IMG/VR virus record: IMGVR_UViG_3300005293_000047
Span: 1 to 33,666 of that record
DNA from: a virus
Direction: 5' to 3' (one strand)
Length of the DNA: 33,666 nt
In this document: piece after piece, positions 50-12,865 of the stretch
Position numbering within the stretch: position 1 is the first letter of the stretch
How the letters are laid out: each line of letters starts with the position of its first letter
The notes under the pieces: model-generated
The model's input: the letters and a program-made list of their open reading frames with translations, nothing else
Database searches by the model: none
Told to the model about the DNA's origin: nothing
Translations under genes and position numbers: made by a program

Positions 50-1408
50 TTGATCTATGAATTAAGTAATATGACAGAGTATGATGTCTATGCTGTTAAC
101 CTACAGTGTGTAAGAAGCTATATCTATTACCATGAATCTAAATACTACAAGAAGATAGTAGATGATGTGATGGAGCATACTAAATACAAATGGGAAGATG
201 CAGTTAGATGGTGGGTGTCTAACTCTGCTCGTGCAATCAAGAAGAAAGCTAATGGATTTGTCTTTAGCTTGGATAGGAATGCATATAGCAAGACAAAACA
301 AGGTATCAACTACAGAAAGGTTAAATCTCTTGTTGATTTCTTGGAGGAGAAAGGGTATATTGACCTTTATAAAGGATACGTTAAGTCTTGGAAGATGGAG
401 AAAGGAAAGCTTGTCCCTGATGAAGCAATTGCTTCTTGTATGATCTTCAGGAAGCGTACAAAAGAGATGTGGGAGAATGTTAATACGTCCTACAATCTTT
501 GGAAAGAATTAGAAGATAATGATTTAGCTATCATTCGTGATCGGGAGACTAAAGAACAAATGCCTACTCGTGGACATAAAGGTTTTAAAGAAATTAAAAA
601 TGAGGTACGAGATATGAATGACACTCTGCAAGGCAGTTCGATTACATTTGATGGCGTTCCTATTGCTGATGTGTCCTATCGTCGCATCTTTAGTGGGGAT
701 ATGGATAGTGGAGGTCGGCTGTACACATTAGGTGGTGGTGTGCAATTACTCCCTCAGCATGTGCGGGCGTCATCTCTAATGATTGATGGCGAGTCATGTG
801 TGGAACTGGACTACTCTGCAATCCACCCATCTATCTGCTATCAGTTGATGTACAAAACAAACGGATTTAATATTTATGACGTGATGGGTAAAGACTTTTC
901 TCCATATGATGCAGACTTGTCATTCCTGAAGGTTGATGGTCGATTGAAAGATGAGTGGGAAAAGAAGACGGGTAAGAAACACAACCCTGTCCGTCAATTA
1001 GCTAAGTTAGCTATCTTGATTGGTATGAACTCTAACGACAAGAATAGTGCAGCATGGACACTTGGTAACAAGGTTAAACAAGATCGTTCCAAGGCTGTTG
1101 AAGATCAGGATTTCTATGCTTTGATTGGTGAGACAGATTATTGTGCTGTTCTTGAGGCTGTGCAAACACATAATGATTTTATTAAAGATCGTTTCTTCTC
1201 TGATGCTGGTATTGTTCTTCAAAACATTGATAGTAAGATCATGATGCGTATTGTTGGGGCAATGGGGGCTAAGGGACACACAGTATTGGCTTATCACGAC
1301 AGTTGCCTAGTTAAAGCTTCTGTTGAAGATGACTTGAGAGAGGCTATGTTCTCAGCTTGGGAAACAGTATTGGGTGATACTACATTCTGTAAGGTGGATA
1401 AGAAATGA
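50..1408 (+). CDS. Divergent polymerase-palm-like protein (family A / single-subunit RNA polymerase type motifs)
   Basis: This 452-residue protein carries three blocks that resemble the A, B and C motifs of family A DNA polymerases and T7-like RNA polymerases. Motif A is D254-YSAIHP, motif B-like is R315-QLA-K319 followed by an IGMNS segment, and motif C is YHDS with D417. Ser418 follows the motif C Asp, as in T7 RNA polymerase, where DNA polymerases have Glu. The helix position usually held by Tyr in motif B is Asn. I see no 3'-5' exonuclease domain; residues 1-240 are unassigned. A likely role is nucleotidyl transfer in phage replication, but this is inference. The start is TTG, chosen because AAGGAG lies at 35-40 with good spacing; an ATG at 71 has no ribosome binding site. 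It overlaps the next gene by ATGA. Confidence 0.72.
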   Translation: MIYELSNMTEYDVYAVNLQCVRSYIYYHESKYYKKIVDDVMEHTKYKWEDAVRWWVSNSARAIKKKANGFVFSLDRNAYSKTKQGINYRKVKSLVDFLEEKGYIDLYKGYVKSWKMEKGKLVPDEAIASCMIFRKRTKEMWENVNTSYNLWKELEDNDLAIIRDRETKEQMPTRGHKGFKEIKNEVRDMNDTLQGSSITFDGVPIADVSYRRIFSGDMDSGGRLYTLGGGVQLLPQHVRASSLMIDGESCVELDYSAIHPSICYQLMYKTNGFNIYDVMGKDFSPYDADLSFLKVDGRLKDEWEKKTGKKHNPVRQLAKLAILIGMNSNDKNSAAWTLGNKVKQDRSKAVEDQDFYALIGETDYCAVLEAVQTHNDFIKDRFFSDAGIVLQNIDSKIMMRIVGAMGAKGHTVLAYHDSCLVKASVEDDLREAMFSAWETVLGDTTFCKVDKK

Positions 1409-2025: not shown

Positions 2026-2286
2026 ATGAATTCTGAAAGCTTCACATATTGGCTCCAAGGCTTCATAGAACTATCCGACACAGACACCATCTCTGAAAAA
2101 CAATGGTTGATTATTAAAGATCATTTGAAGCTTGTGTTTGATAAAGTCACGCCAGTGCGTACACCTGATTGTAACAAAGAAGTATTCGTAGGGGTTGGTG
2201 ACATACCTACTCGGGTGTATCCTTCAGACTACTTCAAACAGTGGAAGTTGACAGACTTTCAAAGTCCTGTTCAGATCACTTGTTAA
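2026..2286 (+). CDS. Conserved-looking phage protein with WLQGF motif, 86 aa
   Basis: The protein begins with a YWLQGFIEL segment (residues 8-16). To my knowledge this opening is common in short uncharacterised proteins of many tailed phages. The rest is mixed alpha/beta with no catalytic motif, signal peptide or membrane segment. GGAG lies 8 bases upstream of the ATG. It is the only protein-coding gene between the 1961 promoter and the ribozyme/tRNA block, so it probably shares their transcript. Function unknown. Confidence 0.68.
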   Translation: MNSESFTYWLQGFIELSDTDTISEKQWLIIKDHLKLVFDKVTPVRTPDCNKEVFVGVGDIPTRVYPSDYFKQWKLTDFQSPVQITC

Positions 2287-2395
2287 AGAATGCGCAGTTG
2301 CTGGATTCTGCCACCTCGTGATAAAGACGAGATAAACAACACCAGCATTAATTTACGAGCGTACGATACCACCGCTCTGCAAGTAGGTATCCAGT
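2287..2395 (+). other. Structured spacer upstream of the hammerhead
   Basis: No gene is visible here. The bases can pair locally: GCTGG with CCAGC encloses a second hairpin CTCGT/ACGAG. Further on, GATACC/GGTATC and GAGCG/CGCTC are mutually exclusive pairings. This suggests an RNA leader or 3' UTR that folds, but I cannot match it to a known RNA class. Confidence 0.3.
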
Positions 2396-2478
2396 CAGAC
2401 ACACTTATTTAATACGCCTGATGAGACTTTGTAATAAGTCGAAACCTTATTAGGTCGCGTAGCTTCCCGAAGTGTCTG
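2396..2478 (+). ncRNA. Hammerhead ribozyme, type I
   Basis: All elements of a hammerhead are present. The core CTGATGA is at 2418-2424. Stem II is GACTT (2425-2429) with AAGTC (2436-2440) around a 6-base loop. GAAA is at 2441-2444. Stem III is ACCT (2444-2447) with AGGT (2452-2455) around TATT. The cleavage nucleotide is C2456 in GTC. Stem I is TACGC (2413-2417) with GCGTA (2457-2461). Beyond an internal loop (2407-2412 and 2462-2469), stem I continues with ACACTT (2401-2406) paired to AAGTGT (2470-2475) and CAG (2396-2398) to CTG (2476-2478), leaving a two-base bulge. An internal loop at this distance is where natural type I hammerheads contact loop II. Stem I is the open end, hence type I. 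Self-cleavage would fall after 2456, 63 nt before tRNA-Pro. Confidence 0.9.
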
Positions 2479-2519
2479 TGGGTTGGGAAGGTGAGCAGAG
2501 CATCTATTTTAAGTTTTAT

Positions 2520-2595
2520 CTAAGCGTAGCGAAAGTGGTAATCGTCTCGGTTTGGAACCGAGTACTCGCAGGTTCGATCCCTGCCGCTTAGACCA
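2520..2595 (+). tRNA. tRNA-Pro, anticodon UGG
   Basis: The acceptor stem CTAAGCG (2520-2526) pairs perfectly with CGCTTAG, followed by discriminator A and encoded CCA (2593-2595). The anticodon stem CTCGG/CCGAG holds the loop TTTGGAA, giving anticodon UGG (codon CCA, with wobble to other CCN). The T arm is GCAGG-TTCGATC-CCTGC. The D arm pairs weakly and base 26 seems absent, so folding may be slightly irregular. It lies 63 nt downstream of the hammerhead cleavage site. Confidence 0.93.
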
Positions 2596-2599
2596 ATTT

Positions 2600-2683
2600 G
2601 CGGAACTGATGTAATGGTAGCCATGGCAGTCTTAGAAACTGCTGTCGAAAGACGTGTAAGTTCGAGTCTTACGTTCCGCACCA
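2600..2683 (+). tRNA. tRNA-Leu, anticodon UAG
   Basis: The acceptor stem GCGGAAC (2600-2606) pairs perfectly with GTTCCGC, followed by A and encoded CCA. The anticodon stem GCAGT/ACTGC holds CTTAGAA, giving anticodon UAG (codon CUA). A long variable arm, as expected for class II tRNA-Leu, precedes the T arm GTAAG-TTCGAGT-CTTAC. Only four bases separate it from tRNA-Pro, so the pair is surely cotranscribed. Confidence 0.93.
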
Positions 2684-2729
2684 GTTTCACCACACCACGA
2701 AGGTCAAATTCTAGAAAGGTGTGTTCCTC

Positions 2730-2786
2730 CCGGCGTCTCTCCTCCTCTATGCCGGATCTTAAAGATAACTGATCCTCTCCTATCAG
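2730..2786 (+). ncRNA. Two tandem hairpins with CUCUCC loops downstream of the tRNAs
   Basis: Hairpin A pairs CCGGC (2730-2734) with GCCGG (2751-2755) and has a 16-base pyrimidine-rich loop. Hairpin B pairs CTGAT (2769-2773) with ATCAG (2782-2786) around the loop CCTCTCCT. Both loops contain CTCTCC, and the loop of the adjacent terminator-like hairpin at 2797-2836 does too. Read on the other strand, the same loops show AGGAGAG. No protein gene on either strand is convincing here. The strand and function are unproven; + is assumed from the tRNA operon. Confidence 0.5.
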
Positions 2787-2796
2787 CTTGTCTTTC

Positions 2797-2840
2797 ATAT
2801 TCTCTTAAGTGTCTCTCTCCTCGCTTAAGAGAATATTTTC
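2797..2840 (+). terminator. Long hairpin with short U-run, likely end of the tRNA transcript
   Basis: A 13-bp perfect inverted repeat (2797-2809 with 2824-2836) is followed by TTTTC. The 14-base loop again contains CTCTCC. The stem is mostly A/T, which is atypical for an intrinsic terminator. Its position after the tRNAs and before the tailspike gene fits a transcript end. Confidence 0.55.
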
Positions 2841-2917
2841 TTAATCATTTTGTTATCCATTGATATTATTGCAAGTAGTCTTGCCAGAATGATTTAGAAA
2901 ATTCAATTAAAACAATA

Positions 2918-2931
2918 TGTGATTTATCACA
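2918..2931. promoter_or_regulatory. Palindrome TGTGATTTATCACA upstream of the tailspike gene
   Basis: A perfect 6+2+6 inverted repeat lies 20 bases before the tailspike ATG. It could be an operator for a dimeric regulator, or an RNA hairpin affecting translation. Weak promoter-like bases (TTGCCA at 2881, CAATTA at 2904) lie just upstream. Confidence 0.3.
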
Positions 2932-2950
2932 ATCATTCAGTAGGGACAAT

Positions 2951-5479
2951 ATGATTCTTTCAGGTATTCTTCTAACCCCTACAGGTGTTCCATATTCAAA
3001 CTCACTTGTACGGATTACAGCTAATAATACATCTCCCGATGTCTTGATGTTTGTCACTAAAGATTTTAAGACAGACATTGACGGGGAATACGAGATTGAT
3101 GTTCCTAATGGTTGGTATAAAGTAAGTGTATTCGTAAATGATTACCATGCATTTACAAGCATTGGTAATATTGAAATTACAGATGATACAACAGAGACAA
3201 CTATTAACGCTCTGTTGATGGTTGGGCAAACTGCTGGGAGTGATCCTTTAGTAGCTCAAGTTGCAGCTAACGCTGCTGCTGCATTGGCTAGTAAGAATGC
3301 TGCTGCTATATCAGCTACGAATTCTACTAACAGTGCTACCGCCAGTGCCAATAGTGCAATAGCCTCTCAAACGTCAGCGGTAGCAAGTCAAACCTCTGCA
3401 ACTAACTCGGCTAATAGTGCATCATCTGCTAGTACTTTTGCGGGTGTATCTACCACTAAGGCTACTGAAGCTTCCACATCTGCACAGGATTCTTTGGATT
3501 CGGCTAATGCCGCTGAAGCTAGTGCTGTGTATACTGAAGGGCTTCTTTCTACTAAAGCTGATATCGCAGATCTATCCAACAACTCCGATCATTTAAAAGG
3601 CGCAGCCTTGATCGGTATTGATCTTGATGGCACACCAGCCACTATTTACTCCATACTTGGTGACTCTCGTGTGCCTATTGAATTGTTTGGTGCAGTTGGT
3701 GACTATGACCCAGATACCCAGATTGGTACGGATTGTACACCAGCCTTCCTTGCAGCTGAAGCTTCGGGCTTACCAATCAAGCTTAAAAGAAACAAGAAGT
3801 ACATGATCACTGATACAATACATGCGTGGTCTTCAATGGATATATTAGGGGATGACACTTATTCACCTGTAATCTATTGTAAGTTTCCATCTTCTGGTAA
3901 GCTGTTCTTTGCAAGCCCATTCACTGGACCAAGACTTAAGAACATATCCTTGAAGGGATTCACTGTAGCTCGTATTGGTACTCATGCCGAACATGGTATA
4001 TTGCTAGATAATACAGATGGTCTATTCCTAGATTTGAAAGTAATTTCAGATGGCACTGCTTTGGGTGGAGCCGTAGGCGTTAGTGCTTTTTATCCATATA
4101 ACAGACCGTCCACTAACTGCTATGGAAAACTTATCTGTGAGAAAGGCGGTAACTTCGGCCTTCAATATGGGAACGTAGATCATGGTAGTATGCAGGTGTT
4201 CTCTACCGACACTATGCGTGAAGTTATTGGTATAGAGCCATACACTTTAGGTAAATACGATTTTACCACATCTTCCGCAAATGCTCTCACCCTGACAGCG
4301 CACGGATTGACTACAGGTTACCCTTTAATTTACTCCCGCCAGAACAACACAGCGATTACTGGTTTTGGACGGGCCAATTACTATTTCGCTATTGTAGTTG
4401 ACGCTAACACTATTAAAGTAGCTGAAACCAAGGAAGATGCTATCACAGGTACTTACAAAACTATTGGTGCTTTCACAGGTACTCATCGTTTGTACAAGTG
4501 TGGTATCGCCAGTAATATTGAAGTTCTTCCGTCTGCCCTCAGTGTAGGTGATGTACCAGCAGCCGGCTCCGCAACAGGTGTGGCTATTATCGCGGCGGCC
4601 TCTGGCGGCTACCACGAGCATGTTGTCATGCGCGGTGTTGATATTATAGAGAGGAACCCCACCTCCGGATCACATTCGTTCTCGGTATACGGCGCTCAAA
4701 ATGCAAGCATTGAGAACTGCTCTGCCGTAGGTAGTAAGGCTAATGCCTACATGATTACTAGTGCATTCCTGAACAACGTGGCAGATGTCACAGGTGACAT
4801 CTCCCCCACTGGAGGTCTTGAGCTTCTTCCTGATGTTGTTGTAAAAGACGTAACAGCATACCAATTCAATGGGTCTGGTATTAGGGTAAACAAAGGTAAG
4901 GCTATTGTTGAGGGCTGTTATCTACACTCAGGCGTTGCTGGGGCATCTGGGATATCTATCTCCACTGACTCTGAGGGTTCCAAAGGAGCAAGAGCAAGGT
5001 ATAACACCGTTAACGTCCCACTGGGAACTTCCTATGATTTTATCACTGGTGTGGGTAATCGTGACGAGAACAGCACAGCACGTAGGGACTATTCATCTAA
5101 AAGGATCAACACTGCATCACAGACAATCTCCAAGAACCTGACAACCACCGGAAACGTGGTTGGTACTTGTGTTTCACAAGATGGTACAGCAACCAACTTT
5201 TCCGGTGTATTGTTCATTACAGTTAAACAAGTCGATGCAAATGCTTCTGAGACAGCACACTACATCCTTCAGGTAGCTAAGGGAGCCACGTCTCTTGCTC
5301 CTCAATTGGTAACTGTCAGTGCTGTTGGGCTTCTAACTGGTGCTGGTGGAACATTCCCATCGTTCACATGGTCTATTGACGCCTCTTCACAATTGAAGGC
5401 TACACCTATTGGATCAACAAACCCTAATGCTACTTGGAACTTTTTTACAAGCACTTTGGGGGACCTTTATGTTTCATAA
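2951..5479 (+). CDS. Tailspike / side tail fibre with beta-helix domain
   Basis: This 842-residue protein has three parts. Residues 1-93 form a beta-rich domain like the N-terminal prophage tail-fibre domain (lambda Stf type), related to carboxypeptidase regulatory folds. Residues about 100-200 are a low-complexity Ala/Ser/Asn/Thr stretch typical of fibre coiled coils. From about residue 238 a segment IELFGAVGDYDPDT with a following DCTPAF resembles the entry of pectate-lyase-like beta-helices of tailspikes; the remaining 600 residues are repeat-like with many Asn and Gly. It probably binds, and may degrade, a surface polysaccharide. I cannot assign catalytic residues. AGGGA precedes the ATG. 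It lies far from the baseplate operon, next to other receptor-binding genes. Confidence 0.8.
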   Translation: MILSGILLTPTGVPYSNSLVRITANNTSPDVLMFVTKDFKTDIDGEYEIDVPNGWYKVSVFVNDYHAFTSIGNIEITDDTTETTINALLMVGQTAGSDPLVAQVAANAAAALASKNAAAISATNSTNSATASANSAIASQTSAVASQTSATNSANSASSASTFAGVSTTKATEASTSAQDSLDSANAAEASAVYTEGLLSTKADIADLSNNSDHLKGAALIGIDLDGTPATIYSILGDSRVPIELFGAVGDYDPDTQIGTDCTPAFLAAEASGLPIKLKRNKKYMITDTIHAWSSMDILGDDTYSPVIYCKFPSSGKLFFASPFTGPRLKNISLKGFTVARIGTHAEHGILLDNTDGLFLDLKVISDGTALGGAVGVSAFYPYNRPSTNCYGKLICEKGGNFGLQYGNVDHGSMQVFSTDTMREVIGIEPYTLGKYDFTTSSANALTLTAHGLTTGYPLIYSRQNNTAITGFGRANYYFAIVVDANTIKVAETKEDAITGTYKTIGAFTGTHRLYKCGIASNIEVLPSALSVGDVPAAGSATGVAIIAAASGGYHEHVVMRGVDIIERNPTSGSHSFSVYGAQNASIENCSAVGSKANAYMITSAFLNNVADVTGDISPTGGLELLPDVVVKDVTAYQFNGSGIRVNKGKAIVEGCYLHSGVAGASGISISTDSEGSKGARARYNTVNVPLGTSYDFITGVGNRDENSTARRDYSSKRINTASQTISKNLTTTGNVVGTCVSQDGTATNFSGVLFITVKQVDANASETAHYILQVAKGATSLAPQLVTVSAVGLLTGAGGTFPSFTWSIDASSQLKATPIGSTNPNATWNFFTSTLGDLYVS

Positions 5480-5508: not shown

Positions 5509-5922
5509 ATGGCTAAGAAAATTACAAATCCGAACCCATCACCTGATACTAGGTTTGATGGACCACGTTCGAATAGGAACACGAAATCGAACAGTAAAAT
5601 TCGCATCCAGAAATCAAAGCTTCGTGCGACGGCCGAAAAACTTCGTGAAATCGAACCAACTGCACTTGAGAATATCAAGAAGAGTGTAGAAGGCGAGAAA
5701 GTAGAATCTCAGCAGTTAGATTCTTCGAAGTGGGTCGTTTCCAGCATCATAGCGCTCGACCGTGCTGCAGCAAGTGAAGAAGCTAGTCTGACTAAGATCC
5801 GTATGGAAGGTAAGCGTTCGGATGATGACGAAGAAAGTGAAGAGCAAACTCCGGAACAGATCAAATCTGAAATGAAGCCACGTTTGTCATTGGTGTTTGT
5901 TGAACCTGACGAAGACGAGTAG
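5509..5922 (+). CDS. Putative terminase small subunit
   Basis: The 137-residue protein opens with TNPNPSPDTRFDG, similar to the start of DUF5681-type proteins often annotated as small terminase-like. It continues with a basic region (residues 15-45), a likely helical pair, and a very acidic tail (DDDEESEE, and EPDEDE at the C-terminus). Small terminases recognise phage DNA and activate the large subunit. The large subunit lies 5.5 kb downstream, which is far but not unusual for large phages. The charge pattern would also fit another DNA-binding or assembly protein. TAAGG precedes the ATG; a hairpin follows the stop. Confidence 0.45.
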   Translation: MAKKITNPNPSPDTRFDGPRSNRNTKSNSKIRIQKSKLRATAEKLREIEPTALENIKKSVEGEKVESQQLDSSKWVVSSIIALDRAAASEEASLTKIRMEGKRSDDDEESEEQTPEQIKSEMKPRLSLVFVEPDEDE

Positions 5923-11463: not shown

Positions 11464-12865
11464 TTGGGTGGACATCTGTTTCTACGGGGGTCAGGCTGGC
11501 GGAGGTAAGACTTGGGCTGGATTGGCCCATCACGCCAAATATATGCATGACCCGCTTTACCGTGGACTAACGTTACGCCGAACAACACCAATGCTACTTA
11601 AGCCGGGTGCTGTTTGGGATGAAGCAAAACAATTATATAGGCTTCTTGATCCAGATTGTAGAATTAGGATTAAAGACTTAAAGATCATCGCAAGTTCAGA
11701 TGCAGAAGTATTCTTCTCTCACTTTGAACGAGTTGATGATACAGACAACTTTCAAGGTGCTCAAATCTCCAGTTGTGTAATGGAGGAGTTGTGTCAGTTT
11801 GAAGAATCTCAGTTTAACTACATCCTATCTCGTTTGCGTACTAAGGCTAACATGAAGCCTAACATGCGAGCCACCATGAACCCGGACCCAGATAGTTGGG
11901 TGAGAAAGTGGGTTGACTGGTACTTGTATCCAGAAGGTCATGAATTGTTTGGTCGTCCTGACCCAGCAAAGCAAGGTGTAATTAGGTGGTTTGTTCGTCT
12001 AGATAATGAAATGTTCTGGGCTGATACTAAAGAAGAGCTTGATGAACGTTTCCCTGATTGTGTCCCTCTTTCGTTTAGATTCATCGCAGCTTCCGTCTAT
12101 GATAATCCGCATATTGAAAAGAGTTATATCGCTTTTCTTCAAGGTCTTCCTCGCATACAAAAAGAAATTTTGCTCTACGGGAATTGGGAAGCGCGTCCTG
12201 AATCAAATTCGCTAATACGACGTGAGTGGTTTGTGGAATGTGCTGAAGAACCTGCATGGACAGAGATTGTTAAAACAGTAAGAACGTATGACTTTGCTGG
12301 CACTTTGAAAGGTCCAGATACAGTCTACGATCCTGACTACACAGCTAGTATTAAAATCTCTAAATTAAAGAATGGTGAATATTTTATCCATGACATTATC
12401 CGTACAAGGATTCGTTTTGGTGAGTGGAGCCGTTTTGTTCTAGAGAATGCACTTCGGGATGGCGTTAAAGTTGACATTGTAATCCCAGAAGATCCGGGAC
12501 CAAGTGCTAAAGCTGCAACTATGATGCTTGCAAGAGAGATATCTGAGCAAGGTTACTTTGTAAGAACTTTAAAAACCAACCAGAAAAAGATTGATAGGTT
12601 TCGCCCATTTGCATCGTTCACTATGAACGGTGGTATGAAGATCCTAAAGAATTGTGGTAATGACTTTGAGAACAAAGTTTACAATGACCTTTCATTCTTC
12701 TATAAGGAACTTGAGACTTTCACAGGCGAGCGTAAGTCGGGCTCACAAGGCCACGATGATCTCGTCGATGTTTGCTCTGATGGATTTATTGTTCTAGCTC
12801 AGAAGTTGAGTATTCCGCTGTTTACACTCCCCAGCATGACAAAATCCAATGAATTCAGCTTTTAA
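11399..12865 (+). CDS. terL: Terminase large subunit (packaging ATPase/nuclease)
   Basis: This 488-residue protein powers DNA packaging into the prohead and cuts concatemers. Visible motifs are the Q-motif-like KPQ (12-14), Walker A GGQAGGGKT (30-38), Walker B with VMEE (127-130), and the coupling motif TMNP (159-162). An RNase H-type nuclease follows with D298 (TYDFAGT), E364 (IPEDPG) and HDD plus Asp at 452-457. The start is TTG 11399 with GAGGT upstream; a later ATG at 11444 would lose the conserved KPQ. Length is normal for the family. The gene sits between an HNH endonuclease and the portal gene. Confidence 0.96.
   Translation: MTTTNVVAPASKPQAMFLSTPDWVDICFYGGQAGGGKTWAGLAHHAKYMHDPLYRGLTLRRTTPMLLKPGAVWDEAKQLYRLLDPDCRIRIKDLKIIASSDAEVFFSHFERVDDTDNFQGAQISSCVMEELCQFEESQFNYILSRLRTKANMKPNMRATMNPDPDSWVRKWVDWYLYPEGHELFGRPDPAKQGVIRWFVRLDNEMFWADTKEELDERFPDCVPLSFRFIAASVYDNPHIEKSYIAFLQGLPRIQKEILLYGNWEARPESNSLIRREWFVECAEEPAWTEIVKTVRTYDFAGTLKGPDTVYDPDYTASIKISKLKNGEYFIHDIIRTRIRFGEWSRFVLENALRDGVKVDIVIPEDPGPSAKAATMMLAREISEQGYFVRTLKTNQKKIDRFRPFASFTMNGGMKILKNCGNDFENKVYNDLSFFYKELETFTGERKSGSQGHDDLVDVCSDGFIVLAQKLSIPLFTLPSMTKSNEFSF

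Follow-up and report, generated by a model that had tools for sequence, protein, structure and literature searches.

The window, that is, the whole stretch of 33,666 nt that was analysed (IMG/VR record IMGVR_UViG_3300005293_000047), contains on its + strand two tRNA genes called by ARAGORN, tRNA-Pro(tgg) at 2520-2595 and tRNA-Leu(tag) at 2600-2683. The latter is directly 5′ of a conserved RNA located at 2685-2907 (+), an extent given by the covariance model R2 and by the fold, and a tail-fiber gene lies directly 3′ of this RNA. In the relatives, the tRNAs are a variable neighbor of the RNA.

The region preceding the tRNAs has features of its own. A noncoding element at 2280-2412 (+) is conserved, with 93% identity in L013, and is directly followed by a hammerhead ribozyme-like fold at 2413-2461 (+), with a CTGATGA...CGAAA core, a predicted cleavage after C2456 and a sub-threshold match to Rfam HH9 (23.4 bits vs 52). 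The 3′ part of the element together with the hammerhead is ~74% identical in the phages BaqKoxi and PD205 (the latter an N4-like phage), where it is located beside tRNA genes. The hammerhead was considered as the maker of the RNA's 5′ end and rejected; by pattern it lies upstream in only 3 of the 42 relatives and thus is not part of the system. At 50-1408 (+), a 452-aa protein of phrog_4756 is encoded, conserved in phages of Aeromonas, Vibrio, and Rheinheimera, labelled "DNA polymerase" in phage M1 and without a Pfam match.

The + strand of 2685-2907 folds with −63.9 kcal/mol (z −7.18) into five domains, which are in order a 5′ stem (P1), three hairpins that each present CUCUCC in the loop, and a three-way junction at the 3′ end. 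In detail, the TTTCACC leader and the helix P1 (arms 2691-2696/2718-2723) occupy 2685-2723, and the large conserved loop of P1 carries an AAATTCT motif; TTTCACC and AAATTCT are kept among the relatives and the arms of P1 vary. Hairpin 1 (2730-2755, stem 2730-2736/2749-2755) exposes the loop CUCUCCUCCUCU. Hairpin 2 (2761-2795) has its stem at 2761-2773/2782-2795, with a bulge at 2787 and the loop CCUCUCCU, and hairpin 3 (2797-2836) is a stem of 15 pairs (2797-2811/2822-2836) closing the loop UCUCUCUCCU. The terminal domain (2837-2900, UAUUGCAAG...CUUGCCAG) is supported by covariation on the alignment A3 of 34 relatives, and no U-tract follows it. In L033, L048, L057, and L061, a tRNA-like sequence seemingly stands after the terminal domain, with no ARAGORN call.

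An earlier note on this DNA had described three CUCUCC-loop hairpins at 2730-2840. The fold confirms them and the shuffles exclude chance: when the window was dinucleotide-shuffled 200 times, three CTCTCC hairpins never fell within 120 nt, and none of 1000 shuffles of 2690-2910 reached three. All three sites stand, but the second stem, placed at 2769-2786, was drawn too short and extends over 2761-2795. Moreover, 2730-2840 is just the middle part of the RNA, to which P1 (2691-2723) and the junction (2837-2900) also belong.

The RNA family is found in phages of soil and the root zone. IMG/VR was scanned with the protein family of the neighboring ORF (5509-5922), which gave 46 contigs, and a detector located a C-loop hairpin cluster upstream in 42 of them. 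Among the other four, L026 is located in the same record as L010, which has a shortened form of the RNA that R2 later matched (G018, E = 1.8e-6); the matching gene of L032 and L054 is close to a contig end, and L059 has just 1.3 kb of upstream sequence. A scan with a pattern of the P1 motifs returned 89 stretches, 11 of them with the RNA (10 in known contigs and one new, L163), and a stricter pattern matched one contig. R2 found exactly one match in 25 of the 28 family records (the window and 27 others), missing three divergent forms (G005, G021, and G022). In the window, the match is the sole one of the record and scores 181 bits with a model that itself contains the window sequence, as L025. 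Since most of the records matched by R2 had also gone into its construction, these matches confirm the single copy and the position of the RNA and are not a discovery. It is practically certain that a conserved phage RNA family exists.

Outside the family, no match of R2 was obtained in six outgroup phage records, and the 59 pattern-matching stretches of bacterial genomes included none that encodes a relative. A distant DNA search of phage records gave matches to the tRNA and the upstream element and nothing across the hairpins, and the downstream ORF had no match in a distant search of such records. Compared with cultured phages, the terminase of the window is closest to those of the Pseudomonas phages M1 (47%), phiPMW (44%), and SYP (42%), which makes Pseudomonas, or a bacterium closely related to it, the probable host.

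The earlier note also held that selection acts on the loops and not on the stems, and the relatives bear this out: they exchange the stems and retain the loops. RNAalifold on A3 recovered the terminal domain only, because the unequal stem lengths of the C-loop hairpins misalign, and the hairpins were thus parsed one by one. When the core hairpins of the 34 relatives were folded with no motif requirement, a C-rich loop was present in 90 of the 93, that is, three per RNA in 22 RNAs and two in 12. These 34 sequences of A3 come from 41 distinct RNA segments, the divergent or oddly built ones (L036, L038, L040, L046, L049, L067, and L069) being left out. Equivalents of hairpin 1, for instance, combine a C-rich loop with differing stems.

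Among 111 distinct hairpins anchored on C-rich motifs there are 97 distinct stems; mean pairwise identity is 0.69 for the loops and 0.43-0.44 for the stem arms (1500 sampled pairs), and the commonest loop hexamers, TCTCCT and CTCTCC, occur in 80 of the 111 each. Because of this anchoring, the unanchored count (90/93) is the fairer measure of loop conservation. A strict hairpin search found 52 hairpins on the + strand and 0 on the − strand of 13.6 kb of RNA segments, and 30, both strands together, in the upstream blocks of the family (350 kb). Stems kept and loops lost, which the earlier note had named as evidence against its proposal, is the reverse of what the relatives show.

The terminal domain is strongly supported by covariation. 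Its 18 pairs on A3 are formed in 92.1% of the cells, with two-sided changes in 13 of them, and slid controls reach 35-58% pairing. On four of the five measures, none of 500 shuffles was as high; the fifth, further pair types, was unexceptional (170/500). Alignment A4 took 28 of the 29 terminal-domain stretches, omitting L039 with its shortened domain, and lost the outer helix, so the model R1 derived from it was not used.

The same helices determine the strand. G.U pairs outnumber A.C in the C-loop stems (57 vs 18) and in the terminal domain (55 vs 15), and since a G.U pair becomes an A.C mismatch on the opposite strand, the RNA is the C-rich + strand. The − strand also folds more weakly (−57.9, z −3.51). 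The earlier note had considered both strands. Its + strand proposal, an anti-Shine-Dalgarno-like RNA beside tRNAs, agrees with this asymmetry, with the z-score of the fold and with the match of the loops to early-block ribosome-binding sites (RBSs) described below. On the − strand it had seen a CsrA/RsmA sponge, for which speak the GGA exposed in the reverse-complement loops and the nearest cultured phages being those of Pseudomonas. This reading is very improbable, however, because the asymmetry favors the + strand in two independent sets, the − fold is the weaker one, and the adjoining tRNAs and late genes are on the + strand. Membership of the CsrB/RsmY-Z group, with GGA loops on the transcribed strand, was rejected on the same grounds, as asymmetry and energies give the C-rich strand.

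In searches of Rfam at the gathering score, the window returned only its tRNAs, and ten relatives only tRNAs and group I introns, with no ar14; known phage RNA families of Rfam (GOLLD, ROOL, and others) did not match the RNA of the window at this score. In a permissive search, the nearest family was ar14 (RF02344), with 24 bits (E = 0.023), where the gathering score is 58.8. The phage RNA resembles the ar14 family in anatomy, having likewise three hairpins that share a loop type and differ in their stems, but is not assigned to it, as the score is below gathering and the ultraconserved loop motif CCUCCUCCC is absent. The wider CCUCCUCCC sRNAs of alphaproteobacteria bear the name "cuckoo". The loops of the phage RNA are CUCUCC(U) instead, a 5′ domain and a terminal three-way junction are added, and the gene is phage-encoded beside tRNAs; ar14/NfeR1 is alpha-r14, an alphaproteobacterial RNA, whereas the nearest cultured relatives of our phage infect gammaproteobacteria. 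As described in passages of PMC10746234, NfeR1 has three hairpins with identical anti-SD loops on very different stems, which redundantly block translation initiation regions, and ar14-related RNAs consist of two to four hairpin modules according to passages of PMC3927594.

Two phage systems offer further likenesses. The sRNA1 and sRNA2 of the Pakpunavirus PAK_P3 are, like the present RNA, intergenic at phage tRNAs and are abundant late in infection, but have about 100 nt, as described in passages of PMC4933390; R2 had no match in the Pakpunavirus PA10. The c4 antisense RNA of P1/P7, in a passage of PMC12197685, is also a phage RNA whose loops bind mRNA at the RBS, but with a single target and specific complementarity, unlike the repeated generic SD complements proposed here. 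In the open-access literature, covered by titles, abstract openings, and some passages, no description of the RNA was found.

The loop hexamer UCUCCU is complementary to AGGAGA, and in 20 genomes AGGAGA is the top hexamer at −18 to −4 of those ORFs of the divergent upstream block that lie on its main strand. This block probably consists of early or middle genes, judging from its strand and its gene content (for instance, dCMP deaminase, DprA-like, methyltransferase, and protease genes in L088). AGGAGA precedes 113 of 579 upstream-block ORFs and 18 of 208 late genes (Fisher p = 2e-4). The bias holds when averaged by genome (0.196 vs 0.088, p = 0.0014) and by protein family (0.163 in 265 families vs 0.014 in 49 late families, p = 0.005). 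AAGGA, another SD core, showed no difference between early and late genes, and GGAGAG alone was marginally enriched early (p = 0.06). For these statistics, ORFs were called simply, from the longest ATG frame, and exact duplicates among the upstream sequences were dropped; the initial tally had used a looser, strand-based gene split.

Duplex energies point in the same direction, with better pairing of the loops to early-block than to late RBSs. The SDs of early genes are also the stronger ones with respect to the 16S rRNA, and this could account for much of the bias; when RBSs are compared at matched anti-SD energy, the early ones are still the better partners of the loop consensus in three of four bins. 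Coevolution of loops and RBSs across phages was considered and rejected. It had been suggested by the outgroups M1 and PA10, where GGAGG exceeds GGAGA, but L067 and L069 have CCUCC-type loops and yet GGAGG in 0 of 29 and 0 of 35 RBSs of their upstream blocks, and the outgroup phiPMW is also contrary (GGAGA 14 vs GGAGG 8 on the − strand and 3 vs 0 on the + strand).

The best reading, to which we give a probability of about one half, is a trans-acting anti-SD RNA aimed at the early genes of the phage. We infer that a + strand noncoding RNA of ~220 nt is expressed and probably released by processing from the transcript of the tRNA and virion genes. As redundant anti-SD seeds, the three CUCUCC loops would pair in vivo with AGGAGA/GGAGAG RBSs, which are common in the early block but which few late genes have, and the pairing would block translation of early genes as the late transcript appears. 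NfeR1/ar14 is the mechanistic precedent (passages of PMC10746234), and PAK_P3 is a precedent for sRNAs that are located near the tRNAs of a phage and become abundant late (passages of PMC4933390). Against this reading weigh the stronger SDs of early genes, the loops of L067 and L069 with no GGAGG RBSs to match, the marginal result for GGAGAG and the transcription signals: no intrinsic terminator (GC-rich hairpin and U-tract) was found at 2200-3000 on either strand, and the one promoter-like match, at 2926-2955, is weak and lies 3′ of the RNA.

The same pairing may be directed mainly at host mRNAs and thus aid the shut-off of host translation. SDs of the general kind (AGGAG) pair with the loops as well, and many cellular mRNAs are targeted by ar14 RNAs in passages of PMC10746234. 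We regard host mRNAs as rather unlikely main targets, though, given that most loops are UCUCC, the complement of GGAGA, and not the canonical CCUCC, and that the matching RBS is avoided by the phage's own late genes. The missing terminator may instead indicate that the RNA is a leader in cis of the late block, whose hairpins have a part in stabilizing or processing the late mRNA or serve there as a protein-binding site (as a stability cap, in antitermination, or in translation control). In most loci the RNA is on the late strand immediately 5′ of the next ORF, and its 3′ end is often tens of bases from it, which makes a role in cis possible. Nevertheless, this role is unlikely: the downstream gene differs, being a tail fiber of ~840-1030 aa or a gene of ~135 aa, a tRNA-like sequence or a longer gap follows the RNA in some loci, and a leader has no obvious need for three to four redundant SD-complement loops.

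Protein sponges, such as CsrB and RsmZ, also typically repeat the same loop on stems that can be exchanged, and the RNA might accordingly serve as a decoy or scaffold, recognized through its C-rich loops by an RNA-binding protein of the host or the phage. Such a function does not predict the match of the loops to the RBS bias and is considered improbable.

If the trans-acting anti-SD reading is true, one small RNA made of interchangeable hairpin modules would control a whole class of phage genes through their shared RBS, which gives a simple, testable timing of infection, and the architecture of anti-SD sRNAs would have arisen in phages apart from alphaproteobacteria. More tentatively, the RNA may be a general early-to-late translational switch, in which the late-transcribed RNA silences AGGAGA-led early mRNAs and late RBSs evolve to escape. 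The T4 endoribonuclease RegB shuts off early phage mRNAs late via the GGAG of their SD; RegB is a protein nuclease and not an RNA, and such a switch would be its RNA counterpart. Irrespective of the mechanism, the RNA family itself is well supported, and it is missing from Rfam 15 as far as the searches of the window and ten relatives go.

Hairpins were noticed in two of the outgroup phages. In Pseudomonas phage M1 (L020), a hairpin with a TTCTCCTC loop and ATCCTCCTAC nearby is located at 5840-5900, between a hypothetical and the next gene, and is not matched by R2. In PA10 (Pakpunavirus, L083), a lone hairpin with the loop core TTTCCTCCTCCTTTCC lies at 12050-12105, in the gap that separates the terminase gene from the last tRNA, and may be distantly analogous to the C-loop RNA. 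Within the family, the match to the portal protein is split into two or three pieces in G016 and G023, and group I introns at the gathering score were identified in the late region of L036 (9498-9780), L045 (11441-11667), and L049 (12784-13005).
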